From Candidatus Curtissbacteria bacterium RIFCSPLOWO2_02_FULL_40_11 (GTDB lineage: Bacteria > Patescibacteriota > Microgenomatia > Curtissbacterales > GWA2-41-24), in the NCBI GenBank assembly GCA_001776505.1, contig MFBV01000044.1, positions 1 to 38,941 on the forward strand: 38,941 nucleotides of DNA, in the 5' to 3' direction. This document shows positions 4,500 through 33,503 of this stretch, piece after piece. Each line of letters starts with the position of its first letter. Within the stretch, counting starts at the first letter, position 1. The translations under genes were made by a program, and so were the position numbers. The notes beneath the pieces are model-generated. The model had not been told where the DNA came from, did no database searches, and saw only the letters and a program-made list of their open reading frames with translations.

Positions 4500-4549
4500 T
4501 ATTTCTAGGTTAATCCCAACTTGTCATAATGTCTTTTAGACCGCTCGCG
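4500..4549 (-). pseudogene. Second displaced, degenerate rpsO 3' tail (copy 3)
   Basis: Minus strand AAAGACATTATGACAAGTTGGGATTAACCTAG aligns with rpsO end AAAGATATTATTGATAAACTAGGCTTGCCGAAATAA (DKLGL conserved) with indels. Confidence 0.6.
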
Positions 4550-4570
4550 TTCGCAAGGACATTACCTTAT

Positions 4571-4622
4571 TACTTAGGTAAACCCAATTTATCTATTATA
4601 TCCTTTATTAAGAACGGCGCAC
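4571..4622 (-). pseudogene. First displaced rpsO 3' tail (copy 2)
   Basis: Minus strand GCGCCGTTCTTAATAAAGGATATAATAGATAAATTGGGTTTACCTAAGTAA = [16 protein letters not shown], versus true end [16 protein letters not shown]; mostly synonymous differences. Confidence 0.9.
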
Positions 4623-4646
4623 TATTGAAACAACGATTTCAATAGT
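4621..4646 (-). repeat. 26-nt hairpin, 10-bp perfect stem with TCGTTG loop
   Basis: ACTATTGAAA-TCGTTG-TTTCAATAGT on the minus (rpsO coding) strand. Confidence 0.85.
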
Positions 4647-4668
4647 AGTGTAGTCCTTAGCAAAGATA

Positions 4669-4938
4669 TTATTTCGGCAAGCCTAGTTTATCAATAATAT
4701 CTTTATATCTTTCTGGCGCTTTTCTCGTTAAAAAATGAAGGAGTCGGCGCCTTTTATTGATCATTGATAGGAGGCCTCTCCTAGAGTGATTATCATGAGA
4801 GTGATTTTTTAGGTGATCTGCAACATTGCCAATTCTCTGAGAAAGAAGTGCTACCTGAACTTCTGGAGAACCGGTATCACCCTCGTGAGTTTTAAACTTG
4901 TCGATTACCTGTTTTTTTGCAGTCGATTTTGTAGCCAT
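4669..4938 (-). CDS. rpsO: 30S ribosomal protein S15
   Basis: [19 protein letters not shown]...[25 protein letters not shown]...[12 protein letters not shown] signature. Confidence 0.97.
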
Positions 4939-20831: not shown

Positions 20832-21098
20832 ATGCCAGTTACAAAACAAGCGATAAAAAAAGTTCGACAAGACAAGCGCAAGGCTATTTACAATGCACGA
20901 AAAAAAAGGGGCTATAAACAGGCTGTTAAGAATTACTTGAATAAACCAACAGCTGCAGCACTGCAAAAGGTCTTTAGTACTTTAGATAAAGCAATGAAAG
21001 TAAATATAATTCACAAGAATAAAGCGTCTAGATTAAAATCACAGCTAGCTAAAAAATTACCTTCTTCTAAATCCAAACCAAAAACTAGTTCGAAGTAG
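20832..21098 (+). CDS. rpsT: 30S ribosomal protein S20
   Basis: MPVTKQAIKKVRQDKRKAIYNARKK...LDKAMKVNIIHKNKASRLKSQLAKKL. Confidence 0.93.
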   Translation: MPVTKQAIKKVRQDKRKAIYNARKKRGYKQAVKNYLNKPTAAALQKVFSTLDKAMKVNIIHKNKASRLKSQLAKKLPSSKSKPKTSSK

Positions 21099-21119
21099 AC
21101 GCTTTGCGAGAATTTCGCA

Positions 21120-21145
21120 ACTATCATAATCGTTGTTACGATAGT
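21120..21145 (+). repeat. 26-nt hairpin with TCGTTG loop (same element as downstream of rpsO)
   Basis: ACTATCATAA-TCGTTG-TTACGATAGT. Confidence 0.8.
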
Positions 21146-21154
21146 TCTCCATTC

Positions 21155-21254
21155 TCTAAAAGCTGCAAGGCTTAAGTCTCAATTATCTAATAAACTACCG
21201 TCTTCAAAATCGAAAAAGGCTGCCACAACAACCGAAAAATCCCCTAAATCTTAA
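21155..21254 (+). pseudogene. Displaced rpsT 3' tail
   Basis: Reads LKAARLKSQLSNKLPSSKSKKAATTTEKSPKS*, versus true end NKASRLKSQLAKKLPSSKSKPKTSSK*. Confidence 0.92.
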
Positions 21255-21259
21255 GGGCT

Positions 21260-21328
21260 TGACCCTTCGACTCGCTTCGCTCGCTCAGGGTCTGCGCCAT
21301 GAACTGAACTTCGTTCTAGTTCATGGCT
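21260..21328. repeat. Two palindromic repeats (CCCTTCGACTCGCTTCGCTCGCTCAGGG and CCATGAACT...AGTTCATGG)
   Basis: Direct reading of inverted repeats. Confidence 0.75.
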
Positions 21329-21367: not shown

Positions 21368-21631
21368 ATGAAACTTTCAAGTCTGCGAAAGTCATTATTT
21401 TCTAAAGCTGTAGGTTTTTCATCTGCACTCGCAACTTCGCTGTACCTAGCTACAAGTGCGCTGGCGCAGACATCTACAGGTACCACAGGTACAACCACTA
21501 CAACCAAAGGTGGTACAACTTCGTCTTTACCGGAGGCGGGTACTACTGAGCTTACCTACCTACTGTTTATAGGTGGAATAGTTTTGTTTGTGATTGGAAC
21601 TATAAAGGTAGTTCAAAGCTTTAGAGAGTAA
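21368..21631 (+). CDS. Small secreted Thr-rich protein with LPEAG sortase-like C-terminal signal
   Basis: N-terminal signal (SKAVGFSSALATSLYLATSALAQ), T/G-rich spacer, SLPEAG, TM segment, basic tail. Confidence 0.75.
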   Translation: MKLSSLRKSLFSKAVGFSSALATSLYLATSALAQTSTGTTGTTTTTKGGTTSSLPEAGTTELTYLLFIGGIVLFVIGTIKVVQSFRE

Positions 21632-21650: not shown

Positions 21651-22778
21651 TTAATGTAATTCGATAAGTCGTTCGACCTCGTCTTTGAGGCGGATTAGGA
21701 CTTCGTTGTAAGTAAATTGTCCAACGAGTTCGGGGCCGCGCTTAAGATTGACGTGAGTAGGCCCACACCAAAGACCAAGGTCGGCGTCATCAGTTTCTCC
21801 CGGACCATTAACTCTACACCCCATAACAGCAATAGTTATGTTATTGTCTTTCGCAAATTCCGTTAGTTCACGCACGCTTTGCGCAAGCTCAACAAAAGCC
21901 TCGTTTTCAACTCTTGAGCAAGATGGACATGAAATTATATTTAATCCCCCATCTTGAATTTCTGATAAGGATAGAAATTCTCCTGCTTCAATTTTCTCAA
22001 GAATTTCACGACCCACGTGTATTTCTTCACCTTTTTCCTCAAAAGGTAGAGTTAGGGAAACTCGAATTGTATCACCTATGCCAATCGGAATTAATTGTTC
22101 GAAGGCGAGTCGAGTTTTCATAATGCCGCCCAGAGGCATTCCTGCTTCAGTTACACCTAAATGGATTGGTACATCTGGACGAAGCTTTGCAAAACGTTTG
22201 TTGGCTTCAACAACTTTTTTTGGATCGGAATCTTTGAGGGAAACACAGTAGCGAGTAAATCCAAGCTTGTCTAGAATCTCGCTATGTTCAAGTGCTGATG
22301 CGACTATTGGGGATATTGAGTCAGAAGGATCGAACCTGTTGGCAACTTCCGGATCGACCGACCCACAGTTAACACCTACTCTTAAAGCGCAATCATGCTT
22401 TTCTGCCTGTTCAGCAATAAATGCGACTTTTTCCCTTGTCGACATTTGTTTTTCATGGTGCCAAAGGTGACCCGGGTTGTAGCGGATTTTATCAACATAT
22501 GGTACTACTAATTTCGCCAAACGCCAGTTTTCTTGGAGATCAACCGAAAGTGGAACTACGGTCTGAGCCCGAATTTCTGCTAAAGCCTCGACATCTTTTA
22601 TGCTATCTGCTGCAATTCTAACTAAAGATGCGCCAGCCTTTTCCAGCAATTGAACTTGCTGCAGGGTTGCTTCAATATCCTGTGTGTGCGTTGCAGCCAT
22701 ACTCTGAACTGCAATAGGCTTGTCTCCACCAATTTTTAAGCTGCCAATGCCAATTTCTTTGGTCTGCCTGCGTTCTAT
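21651..22778 (-). CDS. ispG: 4-hydroxy-3-methylbut-2-enyl diphosphate synthase (IspG/GcpE), apparent ATA start
   Basis: Conserved N-terminus (I)[33 protein letters not shown] lies upstream of the first ATG; C-terminal SCPSCSR and [10 protein letters not shown] iron-sulfur ligand region. Confidence 0.9.
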
Positions 22779-23914
22779 TGTTCCTCCAACTTAAATATTT
22801 GTTGCTGAACATATTCGGCAAGATCGGAATAAAGGTTACCTCGAGGAACTAGTACAAATTGGCCGCCATGGTCTTCTGGATTACCAACCTGCAAGATGCT
22901 CCCCTTTTCTTCGGTATCGAGAACAAGCCTGCGGATAGTAGTTGGGTCTATTTTGCCAGCCAATTTAGCAAAAAGTGGAATATCATCGTTTTCGATATTA
23001 GTGTCGATTGACTGACCGAAGGTTTTAATCAAATCTATGATTGTAGAAGGGTTAGTAAGAATCTCGGACGAAAGCATTTTGTCGCGAAATGCAAGAATGG
23101 CCTTCTGTTGACGCGCGCTTCTTGCAAAATCCGAGCCTTCGTCGTTTGTCCCCTTTCTGGACCTTACGAATTTTAAAGCAGTTTCACCGTCCATCAAAGT
23201 TGAACCTTGAGCAAATTCAATAGTTTCATATCGACAGGTAAATGGGTCGTTATTGTCATTGAGTTCATCTATTCGGATTTTTTCATCATCGCTAATCTTG
23301 ACGACTTTAGTCTCTTGCCCATCTATTTCTTCAGTTTCAATTGTCAATCCGCATAGGTTGTTTTCTTTACCGCTAATTGGGTAGCGCTCGTCGATAAATG
23401 CATTTTCTACATTAACATTTAATCCATCGACTAAATCTACCGCCTTGACAAATCCATCAAAATCTAAACGCACTGCATAGTGAACAGGCATGCCAAATAG
23501 AAGGCTGATGGTTTCTTGCACTAATTCCAATCCGTCACCTTGTTCTAAGCCGTAAGCATATGCACTATTAATTTTGGCACGCAGATTAGGTGCCCAAAGA
23601 TCTCGAGGAATAGAAACTAAAACGACATCTTTGCCTTTTTTATCGATTGAGGCAAAAATCATGGTGTCGGAGAGATATGGCCCTTCATGGCCCGGCCCTC
23701 CGGTTCCAAGAAGTAAAAGGTTGACTCTCCCCCTATCGCTTTCAAGTCCCGTATCCGTGATGAGTTCGACCACCGTTTTGGGGCCTTTAAATACAAATTC
23801 GCCCAGATTCAGAAATTTAATAACTCCTAAAACCACAAACGTTAATACGATTGCTAAAATAAGGATTTTGAGAATGGGGGCAGACCGTTTCGGTTTATGG
23901 CCCAATTGCCGCAT
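22775..23914 (-). CDS. LytR-CpsA-Psr (LCP) family protein
   Basis: [69 protein letters not shown]. Confidence 0.92.
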
Positions 23915-30360: not shown

Positions 30361-30416
30361 TCACGGTTTTGCTAAAGAAAATGGACAGATAGATTTATAA
30401 GCACAGTATACACAAG
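30361..30416 (-). pseudogene. Displaced uvrD-recB 3' tail
   Basis: Minus strand reads CVYCAYKSICPFSLAKP*, versus true end CNYCAYNSICPFSLAKIT*. Confidence 0.9.
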
Positions 30417-30417
30417 T

Positions 30418-30437
30418 CCCCTTCGACAAGCTCAGGG
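30418..30437. repeat. Palindromic repeat CCCCTTCGACAAGCTCAGGG
   Basis: CCCTTCGA..../CTCAGGG-type repeat also found elsewhere in the window. Confidence 0.85.
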
Positions 30438-30446
30438 TGCATGCAA

Positions 30447-33400
30447 TTATGTAATCTTTGCTAATGAGAAAGGACATATCGAATTATAAGCACAATAATT
30501 GCATGCAGGTTCGCGGCCGAAATATTTGGGATTGGCTGCGAAATGATTGTTAGTAATATCCCTTCTGATATTGTCTGCGGTGTCTATAATTAATTTTTCG
30601 GTTTTTTCTAAAGTTTCTTGGGTCGGAGTATAAAATCCTTCAATTCCGGTTTCTAAAAAATGGAGCGTGAGTTTTTGGGGAATAATTTTGTGGCTTTTGT
30701 AATAATAGAGAGCGTAGACTGCAAGCTGAGTCGATTCTTTAGCCTGGCTATTCGCTCTTCCCTCGTCAATATTTTCTGAAGATTTGTAATCTATAATTTC
30801 GACTTCGGAACCTTTTCTAACGTCTACTCTATCGAATCGACCGGTAATCGTAACGCCCGACAGAGAAAACTTGAAGGGTGATTCAATGAGACTGGGAACG
30901 TCTTTAGTTTTTGATTCACGTTTATAGAATTGCTCCAGGGCAATTTTACCTTGAGCTTTTCTTTTTTCTTCATGCTCAACTGTTAAAAATCCTTCGCTGT
31001 CCCAGGCATTTTCAAAAACTTCTAGAAGATTTCCCAGCGACATTAGCTGTCCGCTTTTTTTAACTCGAAAAAACTGGGCAACTGCCGTGTGAAGAGCGGC
31101 GCCATAAGCAATTGCATGATGACGAACTATGGGAAGACGTAAAATGTGCACATAACGATATTTAAAAGCGCAAGTTAAATAATCGTCGATCGAACCTTGG
31201 GTAAGTTTTAAAACGTCAACGTCGAATAAAACTTGTTGGCTCGTCTGCCAGCCGGTGGATGTAGGGGCTGGTGCAAACTTTTCAATTTTTTCAAGTGGAG
31301 ACAGTTTGGTAAATATACTATCTGCTTTTGGCTTATCAAGCGCTTCCAAAACAAATGGTGAAATCTTTTTAAGCCTTCTGCCTCCAACATCCCGTGACCA
31401 AGAAAAGTACGCTAAATCCATGGCACGAGTTACCCCAACATAAAAAAGCCTCCTTTCCTCCTGCATATGCCAATCACCAGAGGGCAAAGTTTCGCGAATA
31501 ATTTTTTCTGGAACCTCTATTGCTTCACCACGATATCGGCTAGGGAATCTGTCGGATACCAAATTAACCATAAAGACAACCGGGAATTCTAAGCCTTTAG
31601 CACCGTGAACCGTCATGACATTAACGGCATCTAAGTCGGGATCGAACTCAATTGTTGCCGGGTCGTCTCCGGCAGACCGAAGAGCCTCGAGGTATTCTAT
31701 GAAATTTTGAGTCGAATTATTAGACGCAACTTGTTCAAACTCTTTTATCTTGTCGAAAAATTTGGCAATGTTTTGGATTTTTATCTGCCCTTCCACTTGG
31801 TTCTCGCGATCTAACCGCGTGAGATATCCGGTGCGTTTTAGAAAATCGTATAAAACTTTGCCAACATTTTGGCGACGGGAGAGCTTGATGGATTCATCTA
31901 AGTCATTCAAGATTTTTTCGATAATTGATTGGCTTTCGCTAGATAATTCGAATTCTTTAAGCCCCATACCCATGTCATCCTGAGGAGACGCAGTCGACGA
32001 AGGATCTTGTGATTCTTCGCTTCGCTCAGAATGACGTCTCTTAGAGCTAGAATGTATCTCCAAATTCTTTAATAAATAGTACAAAGATCGATTCTTTTTC
32101 TTTGCAAAAGACGTCAGTTTGATAGCATCGGTTGGTGGTAATTGATAAATGTCCGATGTTATTAGGTTGTAAATATTTAAGCTATCTTCAAAATTTGTAA
32201 TTGCAGTAAGATATGAAATTAAAATACTGACTTCTTCTTGCTGATATAGGCCAGATGAACCAACAAACTTGTGAGGGATACCTTTCATATTAAGTGATCT
32301 TAAGAAATGATCAGCCTGGAAATTGGCGCGAACTAAAATTGCAAAATCTCTGTATGTGTAACGCTTAACGCTTTTTTGATTTATCAATCTTTCAATTTCT
32401 TCAGCAACCAGATCGGCTTCTTCGCTCAGCGTGTCCGCAAAAATTTCCTGAGGCAAATGCCCGACATTAGTTTTGATGGATTTGAGTTTTTTATCAATTT
32501 TATTTTGGACTTCCAATCGGTTTGGGTCATTGTGCCTAATTAAGCGGTAAGCGCTGTCTAGAATTTTTTGAGTGGATCGATAATTAACCGTTAAAACTAC
32601 CTGTTTTGTTTTTGGATAATTTTTCTTAAATTCTAAAATGTTGGAAATTGCAGCGCCGCGGAATTTATAAATCGATTGATCGTCATCGCCAACTACACAA
32701 ATATTTTTGTGAGAGCTTGCCAAAGTTTTGACAAGTTCGTTTTGGGCAAAATTTGTATCTTGATATTCGTCTACCAAAATGTATTTAAATTGTTGTTGAT
32801 AATTTTTTAAAAGTTTTGGGCGACGCGTGAATAGTTCAATCGTTTTAACAACCTGGTCACCAAAATCTAAAAATCCAGCTTCGTCTTTAAACTTTTCATA
32901 TTTTTCAAAAGCATGCGCAAGTTCTTTGTATTTTTTTGCTTCTGCTTTCTCATCGCCTTTAGCCTTTAGCCCTTCGACTTTGCTCAGGGTTAACTGGCGT
33001 TTAACGTATTGCGAAAACTCAGCTGGACTGACGTTCTCGTCTTTTAGTCTTGAGAAAAAATCTAAAATTGACGAAATAAATTTTGTGGGATTACTAAGCG
33101 GCCGCCAATAATCTAACTCAAATCGAAACAAATTTTGCTGGAAAAATAAAACTTGTTGGGGCTTGCTAAAAACCTTGAAGTCTGGTGAAAAACCAATTTC
33201 TAAAGCGTTTTCACGAAGAACACGGTCACCAAAAGCATGGAACGTAGAAATCCAAGTGTCGATAAAACCGTATGGAACGAGTTGGTCGACGCGCTCTTCC
33301 ATTTCTCCGGCAGCCTTGTCTGTAAAAGTGAGTGCCAAAATTTCAGAGGGTTTGGCTAACTTTTTTTCAATAATGTAAGCAATGCGCCGAGCAATTACTG

Positions 33401-33503
33401 TAGTTTTACCAGTCCCGGCTCCGGCGATAATTAGAAGCGGACCTTCGGTTGTTTTAACCGCTTCCAATTGTTCATGGTTTAAATCTTTGAGTAAATCAGC
33501 CAC
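30447..33503 (-). CDS. UvrD-family helicase fused to RecB-type nuclease with C-terminal Cys cluster
   Basis: IIAGAGTGKTTVIARRIAYII, VDEYQDTNFAQ, MTVHGAKGLEFPVVFMVNL; C-terminal EIIDYKSS nuclease motif, TCAFKYRYVH and CNYCAYNSIC cysteines. Confidence 0.93.
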   Translation of the reverse strand: MADLLKDLNHEQLEAVKTTEGPLLIIAGAGTGKTTVIARRIAYIIEKKLAKPSEILALTFTDKAAGEMEERVDQLVPYGFIDTWISTFHAFGDRVLRENALEIGFSPDFKVFSKPQQVLFFQQNLFRFELDYWRPLSNPTKFISSILDFFSRLKDENVSPAEFSQYVKRQLTLSKVEGLKAKGDEKAEAKKYKELAHAFEKYEKFKDEAGFLDFGDQVVKTIELFTRRPKLLKNYQQQFKYILVDEYQDTNFAQNELVKTLASSHKNICVVGDDDQSIYKFRGAAISNILEFKKNYPKTKQVVLTVNYRSTQKILDSAYRLIRHNDPNRLEVQNKIDKKLKSIKTNVGHLPQEIFADTLSEEADLVAEEIERLINQKSVKRYTYRDFAILVRANFQADHFLRSLNMKGIPHKFVGSSGLYQQEEVSILISYLTAITNFEDSLNIYNLITSDIYQLPPTDAIKLTSFAKKKNRSLYYLLKNLEIHSSSKRRHSERSEESQDPSSTASPQDDMGMGLKEFELSSESQSIIEKILNDLDESIKLSRRQNVGKVLYDFLKRTGYLTRLDRENQVEGQIKIQNIAKFFDKIKEFEQVASNNSTQNFIEYLEALRSAGDDPATIEFDPDLDAVNVMTVHGAKGLEFPVVFMVNLVSDRFPSRYRGEAIEVPEKIIRETLPSGDWHMQEERRLFYVGVTRAMDLAYFSWSRDVGGRRLKKISPFVLEALDKPKADSIFTKLSPLEKIEKFAPAPTSTGWQTSQQVLFDVDVLKLTQGSIDDYLTCAFKYRYVHILRLPIVRHHAIAYGAALHTAVAQFFRVKKSGQLMSLGNLLEVFENAWDSEGFLTVEHEEKRKAQGKIALEQFYKRESKTKDVPSLIESPFKFSLSGVTITGRFDRVDVRKGSEVEIIDYKSSENIDEGRANSQAKESTQLAVYALYYYKSHKIIPQKLTLHFLETGIEGFYTPTQETLEKTEKLIIDTADNIRRDITNNHFAANPKYFGREPACNYCAYNSICPFSLAKIT
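31974..32035. repeat. In-frame palindromic repeat inside uvrD-recB
   Basis: GTCATCCTGAGGAGACGCAGTCGACGAAGGATC...CTTCGCTTCGCTCAGAATGAC; encodes RHSERSEESQDPSSTASPQDDM. Confidence 0.92.
32970..32989. repeat. In-frame palindromic repeat inside uvrD-recB
   Basis: CCCTTCGACTTTGCTCAGGG; encodes TLSKVEG. Confidence 0.8.

Follow-up and report, generated by a model that had tools for sequence, protein, structure and literature searches.

The stretch analysed here, referred to as the window, is a contig of 38,941 nucleotides (MFBV01000044.1, C44) from the 0.94 Mb genome of Candidatus Curtissbacteria bacterium RIFCSPLOWO2_02_FULL_40_11, and its main subject is the 3' end of rpsT, the gene for ribosomal protein S20. 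The translated open reading frame (ORF) of the intact gene ends in NKASRLKSQLAKKLPSSKSKPKTSSK; a conserved hairpin and then a second copy of the gene end follow on the same strand (Table 1). The tail that closes the gene is designated T1 and the displaced one T2. A first-pass annotation had described this arrangement as a displaced rpsT tail after a hairpin cassette and had given the gap behind the S20 stop codon as 57 nt; the distance to the first codon of T2, which is in the same frame as rpsT, is 60 nt. Only two places in the whole genome resemble S20 in a tblastn search (E 2.8e-49 and 3.5e-5). The T2 similarity score of 86 compares with 52 for the best shuffle, and none of 20,000 shuffles of the downstream 157 nt equals the observed value; the similarity clearly exceeds the codon-level null. 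In the nearest relative (G006, locus L003), rpsT has a single tail, and its stop codon is closely followed by a stretch resembling repetitive extragenic palindromic (REP) sequences, a TTGACAAACAA...TTTAAGCTT promoter and the next gene. In the window, a REP-like hairpin, a TTGACA...TAAGCT promoter and a gene for a small secreted protein lie beyond T2. Because the flank shared with the relative comes after T2 and not after T1, T2 occupies the native position and T1 together with the hairpin constitutes the inserted block. The other 48 genomes with an S20 match, twelve relatives of the same family among them, show no second one, and the inspected S20 tails and flanks of relatives show a single tail each. 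The S20 end KKAATTTEKSPKS occurs in none of about 30 tails inspected, from a comparison set without a congeneric genome.

Table 1. Gene ends, hairpins and displaced tails in the window (T1, replacement tail; T2 and T3, displaced tails; R1, covariance model described in the text).
Feature	Position	Strand	Evidence
rpsT (ribosomal protein S20), intact, ending in T1	20832-21098	+	Pfam PF01649 E 3.3e-13; TIGR00029 E 6.7e-17; ORF
rpsT T1, replacement tail carried by the insert, KASRLKSQLAKKLPSSKSKPKTSSK then stop	21021-21098	+	homology to T2, differences mainly synonymous
X, initial 10 nt of T1 (AAAGCGTCTA)	21021-21030	+	exact reverse complement at 21096-21105
X' (TAGACGCTTT), overlapping the stop codon TAG and abutting the hairpin	21096-21105	+	exact reverse complement of X
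Conserved hairpin, GCGAGAAT...loop ATCGTTGTT...ATTCTCTA	21103-21162	+	R1 83.3 bits, E 1.3e-20 in the window; covariation
rpsT T2, displaced original tail, KAARLKSQLSNKLPSSKSKKAATTTEKSPKS then stop	21159-21254	+	tblastn; codon comparison; downstream flank syntenic with relatives
REP-like palindrome downstream of T2, outside the cassette	21261-21292		motif with about ten copies in the genome
rpsO (S15) with its own replacement tail T1, second R1-type example	4669-4938	-	sequence
Hairpin of the rpsO element	4604-4663	-	R1 58.5 bits, E 9.1e-14; copy outside the model
rpsO T2, displaced tail	4570-4605	-	3 identical, 8 synonymous, 0 nonsynonymous codons
rpsO decayed hairpin (CCTTGCGA...TCTAAAAG) and T3	4503-4557	-	weak R1 match, E 0.74
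UvrD-like helicase gene (30447-33503), same layout at its 3' end	30361-30507	-	X/X', palindrome, displaced tail

The inserted block at rpsT measures 138 bp. Its left junction is AAT/AAA, between 21020 and 21021 (a slash within a junction marks the point of insertion), and its right junction, at the end of the hairpin, is TCTCTA/AAAG. The pair of reverse complements X and X', a feature absent from the first-pass annotation, places the first bases of the restored tail in inverted form against the hairpin. The hairpin itself, which that annotation had proposed from the single locus, is confirmed by covariation: in an alignment of six homologous copies, 96.6% of cells are paired and 6 pairs carry double changes, values matched by 0 and 1 of 500 shuffles. 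With the intergenic DNA as query, the same genome yielded a further copy on contig C26, where the hairpin follows rplL and again parts an intact tail of that gene from a displaced one. A related hairpin follows tRNA-Gln, together with a displaced 3' end of the tRNA. Among 374 Microgenomatia genomes, a pattern search added rplL in another family (G307), rpsG (G066) and tRNA-Thr (G295). The covariance model R1, built from six hairpin copies, one of them the rpsT copy whose own score is to be read accordingly, has matches in 68 of these genomes at E<=1 and about 85 copies at E<1e-4, concentrated in families f1 (14 of 15 genomes), f3 and f30. In IMG/VR, pattern matches lacked the conserved loop and the core pattern matched nothing, and Rfam gave no match in the window (group I or II intron, or other RNA) at gathering scores.

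Copies behind protein genes (class 1) share a fixed order: gene body, WAT/AAR junction, T1 with its stop codon, X', GC, a GAGAA-type box, an asymmetric bulge, the inner stem with the loop ATCGTTGTT, a TTCTC box, TA, the second junction and T2. The conserved hairpin edges are YTT-GC-GAGAA and TTCTC-TA-AAR. At class 1 loci the initial 8-15 nt of T1 reappear in X' as an exact reverse complement, flush to the hairpin; an X/X' pair of at least 8 nt accompanies 34 of 86 hairpins, as against 4 of 577 control positions. The left junction ends in AT at 28 of 36 loci, with AA next.

The same arrangement, a hairpin between an intact gene tail and a displaced homologous tail, is present at 36 of the 87 hairpins examined, compared with 27 of 1500 mismatched pairings, a few of the 36 pairs being weak or non-protein tails (G008:C35, G012:C46 and G164). 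The target genes, named by eye from their translated C-termini except for rpsT, include rplL (5 genomes), rpsG (3), rpsJ (2), rpsO (3), rpsN (G084 and G364, the T2 of the latter decayed), rpsT and hppA (6), as well as a gene with a SecA-type C-terminal CYCGSGKKYKRCHYPN motif, a response-regulator-like gene, a helix-turn-helix gene and others. A scan of about 540 kb, in stretches picked around hairpins and hence giving no genome-wide rate, found 40 ORFs that are followed within 400 nt by a second copy of their tail, as against 1 to 7 at displaced control offsets. Chance is ruled out by the tblastn result, the shuffles and these control offsets, and an assembly artefact by the recurrence of the layout in many metagenome-assembled genomes (MAGs), including the single-contig genome G040. 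Since some 35 further loci share the arrangement, the proposal that the second rpsT tail reflects a divergent allele as a one-off event is unlikely.

Divergence between the paired tails is mainly synonymous, as had been stated for rpsT, where 19 aligned codons comprise 5 identical, 11 synonymous and 3 nonsynonymous ones. Over the 36 loci the counts are 228, 285 and 80, and near the junction the identity of T1 and T2 is about 0.88 at codon positions 1 and 2 and about 0.45 at position 3, giving a three-base rhythm. This pattern implies a history as coding sequence in separate lineages before the two tails came together. It bears directly on the explanation that gene ends were duplicated in place, by replication slippage or template switching at hairpins and with no mobile element involved. 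The X/X' inverted repeats are the type of sequence where template switching occurs, and a second, REP-type hairpin with the same layout is in keeping with such an origin. However, synonymous saturation with a conserved protein requires that both copies evolved as coding tails, which an abandoned copy would not, and one hairpin family is found at unrelated genes and across distant families, so that in-place duplication seems highly improbable. A diversity-generating retroelement was also rejected as the source of the differences: among 489 of them, A stands at 29% in T2 and 28% in T1, with no adenine bias.

At several loci (G107, G006, G364 and G066) T2 is frameshifted or truncated and the gene ending in T1 is intact, the pattern expected of abandoned sequence. 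The broken copies also weigh against the idea that some of the cells remove the element from their DNA or RNA, T1 and T2 then being alternative C-termini that are both kept functional. This idea can draw on the fact that the two tails are often both open and conserved, on an X-X' stem and hairpin that bring the element ends together, and on the frame common to T1 and T2 in rpsT; yet the rplL T2 differs in frame from its gene, and the window has no match to an intron or other RNA family in Rfam. Alternative C-termini are therefore given little more credence than duplication in place. In a separate observation, the displaced hppA tail of G107:C14 (L182) is itself interrupted, with the remainder further downstream, which suggests a nested insertion.

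Two further gene ends in the window have this layout. At rpsO, X (4696-4704) and X' (4662-4670) read AAAGATATT and AATATCTTT, and the region 4503-4938 on the minus strand holds three tails with hairpins between them: T1, T2 and a decayed T3 (4503-4536), an older displaced tail with a one-base deletion, the second hairpin being a remnant. Three-tail arrays are also found at the helix-turn-helix gene in G364 and at rplL in G008. These arrays imply that insertion was repeated at the same site, with new tails proximal. At the UvrD-like helicase gene, a 13 bp X/X' pair (TGCATGCAATTAT at 30495-30507, X' at 30438-30450) is followed by a REP-type palindrome (CCCTGAGCTTGTCGAAGGG, 30419-30437) and a displaced tail that extends to about 30361; a case in G181 (L150) is similar. 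A REP-type hairpin in the same layout indicates that the principle does not depend on a particular hairpin.

Class 2 comprises copies in reverse orientation next to complete tRNA genes, several of which have displaced 3' ends. As at the protein genes, these copies combine a regenerated gene with a displaced fragment, and both the anticodon-loop and the T-loop subsites are represented. Related reverse hairpins stand behind complete tRNA genes at L130, L131, L187, L188, L190, L194 and L200; the displaced tRNA 3' ends are about 190 bp away in several of them, and the boxes differ (TATTGT/ACAATA). Hairpins at L128 (C22:17977-18036 of the same genome) and L143 (G107:C32:14292-14352) appear, on sequence inspection, to lie at 23S rRNA 3' ends, with the initial bases present on either side of the insert.

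Islands in tRNA genes are recognised by a regenerated target and a displaced fragment and use the same two subsites (PMC4383910), and tyrosine recombinases occur in the genome. The cassettes could thus be remnants of larger integrative elements, islands or phages, that a tyrosine integrase placed at gene 3' ends and that were later reduced to their att ends. Against this stand a uniformly small size, with 72-181 bp in almost every insert whose X is clear, and a fixed geometry with X' flush to the hairpin. The smallest inserts measure 72-84 bp and the longer ones exceed them by the length of the restored tail; no long version was found among the hairpins examined. In addition, some hairpin-rich genomes have only Xer-like tyrosine recombinases. 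Reduced islands are accordingly regarded as unlikely, even if less so than the two alternatives above.

The block in rpsT is probably an integrated, enzyme-less mobile cassette of 138 bp that replaced the gene tail and displaced the resident one. Insertion with tail replacement is well supported, and mobility through a folded circular form is plausible. According to this model, a cassette of 70-180 bp, comprising a replacement tail and a folded recombination site, would insert at WAT/AAR near gene 3' ends. At rpsT it would have entered at AAT/AAA and exchanged the C-terminal codons for its own recoded tail T1, pushing the resident T2 downstream, where it would now be out of use. In a circular or single-stranded form, X' and X would flank the hairpin and extend it, as X' GC GAGAA...TTCTC TA X, to a single long stem that contains a 2-nt mismatch (GC/TA) and resembles an integron attC site. 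The folded form may then recombine with a WAT/AAR target through a recombinase supplied in trans, of the housekeeping Xer type or another. Spread among related species would explain the mainly synonymous divergence, and the insertions would be tolerated because the cassette restores the gene end.

Several points weigh against the cassette model. No excision, circle or empty site was observed in the compared genomes, which include no congener. Lineage-specific residues are often common to the T1 and T2 of a genome, in a between-genome comparison of tails limited by synonymous saturation, so that T1 is only putatively foreign. The WAT/AAR sequence alone predicts unrelated tails, and the tails are nearly always homologous; extra specificity, from X', T1 homology or selection, must therefore be assumed. 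Finally, no recombinase tracks the hairpins, a result limited by MAG incompleteness and covering tyrosine recombinases and Y1 transposases.

Among the enzymes considered, the recombinases encoded on C14, C9, C42 and C29 of the same genome score at most 123 bits against TIGR02249 (cut-off 265), so by this scoring no integron integrase (IntI) was found there. The tyrosine recombinases of hairpin-rich genomes are mostly Xer-like, and no common non-Xer member was found in the hairpin-rich G084, G295 and G012. The C9-type gene is Xer-like and near-universal (338 of the 374 genomes), hence uninformative as a dedicated enzyme. Y1 transposases (PF01797) are unsupported as a general mover: none was found in G012, G364, G109 or G195, each with R1 hairpins, although these MAGs may be incomplete. 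By elimination only, the host Xer is a candidate; the insertion targets are gene tails and, as far as seen, not dif, the site at which host XerC/XerD integrates elements of the IMEX or CTX type. One hairpin, at L142 (G109:C4:60003-60980), is situated some 50 bp ahead of a C9-type Xer-like gene, in its promoter region, a proximity that looks coincidental.

Comparison with known systems places the cassettes between several of them. In the Islander definition of islands at gene 3' ends, the gene is split on integration, its 3' end is supplied anew by the element, and the displaced fragment marks the far end (PMC4383910). The 36 protein-type and several tRNA loci resemble such islands, known at tRNA, tmRNA and some protein genes, in the restored gene and the same-strand displaced fragment, in the use of anticodon-loop and T-loop subsites and in the possibility of tandem occupation. 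They differ in measuring 70-180 bp instead of kilobases, in sharing little core sequence, in a recoded T1 and in having no integrase gene, for which 72-181 bp leaves no room. Like integron cassettes with attC (PMC3053210), they end in a folded hairpin site whose arm complementarity would be completed in the circle, and the newest unit of an array is proximal; covariation and X/X' together indicate an attC-like folded single-strand site. Unlike them, they have no GTTRRRY/RYYYAAC boxes at their edges and no integron integrase was found in the genome studied, and they combine a conserved loop, a cargo of the gene tail only and dispersed targets inside genes. In its mode of action the cassette thus resembles an integrative island at a gene 3' end and in its appearance an integron cassette, and it lacks defining properties of both. 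REP elements with their REP-associated tyrosine transposases (RAYT) and IS200/IS605 are similar in that short hairpin units are moved in trans and the element foot pairs with the cleavage site, and the helicase locus is itself a REP-type case; unlike in those systems, Y1 transposases are missing from several R1-carrying genomes. Carrying a gene tail is not known to be a defining trait of REPs. Mobile endonuclease insertions in fungal mitochondrial genes, atp6 for example, bring a foreign C-terminus as a replacement coding tail and displace the resident tail. The present cassettes, in contrast, are bacterial, have no endonuclease and use one shared hairpin family for many genes.

Essential genes normally stay free of selfish DNA. 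The elements described here are very small, integrate inside ribosomal protein and tRNA genes, and would be harmless through a recoded replacement tail. More tentatively, they may form a new class of mobile DNA: gene-tail cassettes made up of nothing but a recoded gene end and a folded recombination site, which are mobilised in trans, prefer essential translation genes and accumulate as arrays of displaced tails, a natural counterpart of recoded-rescue gene drives. No published description was found in the open-access full-text literature, a search that left subscription papers and most preprints outside. If the model is true, it shows how the streamlined genomes of the candidate phyla radiation (CPR) tolerate mobile DNA, provides a marker of recent transfer between uncultured species, reveals a recombination system with an unknown enzyme and explains odd C-termini of ribosomal proteins. 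Islander rejects any candidate that is shorter than 2 kb or has no integrase (PMC4383910), and surveys demanding an integrase or an insert of at least 2 kb would miss such cassettes.

Downstream of the rpsT locus, the small secreted protein (21368-21631, plus strand) has a C-terminal membrane segment (ending in LPEAGTTELTYLLFIGGIVLFVIGTIKVVQSFRE) and no Pfam or NCBIfam family above cut-off; its gene stands behind rpsT in most relatives of the family. The following ispG (21651-22700) apparently lacks its first in-frame codons, and an overlapping ORF in another frame (22672-22821, minus strand) hints at a frameshift or a sequencing error.
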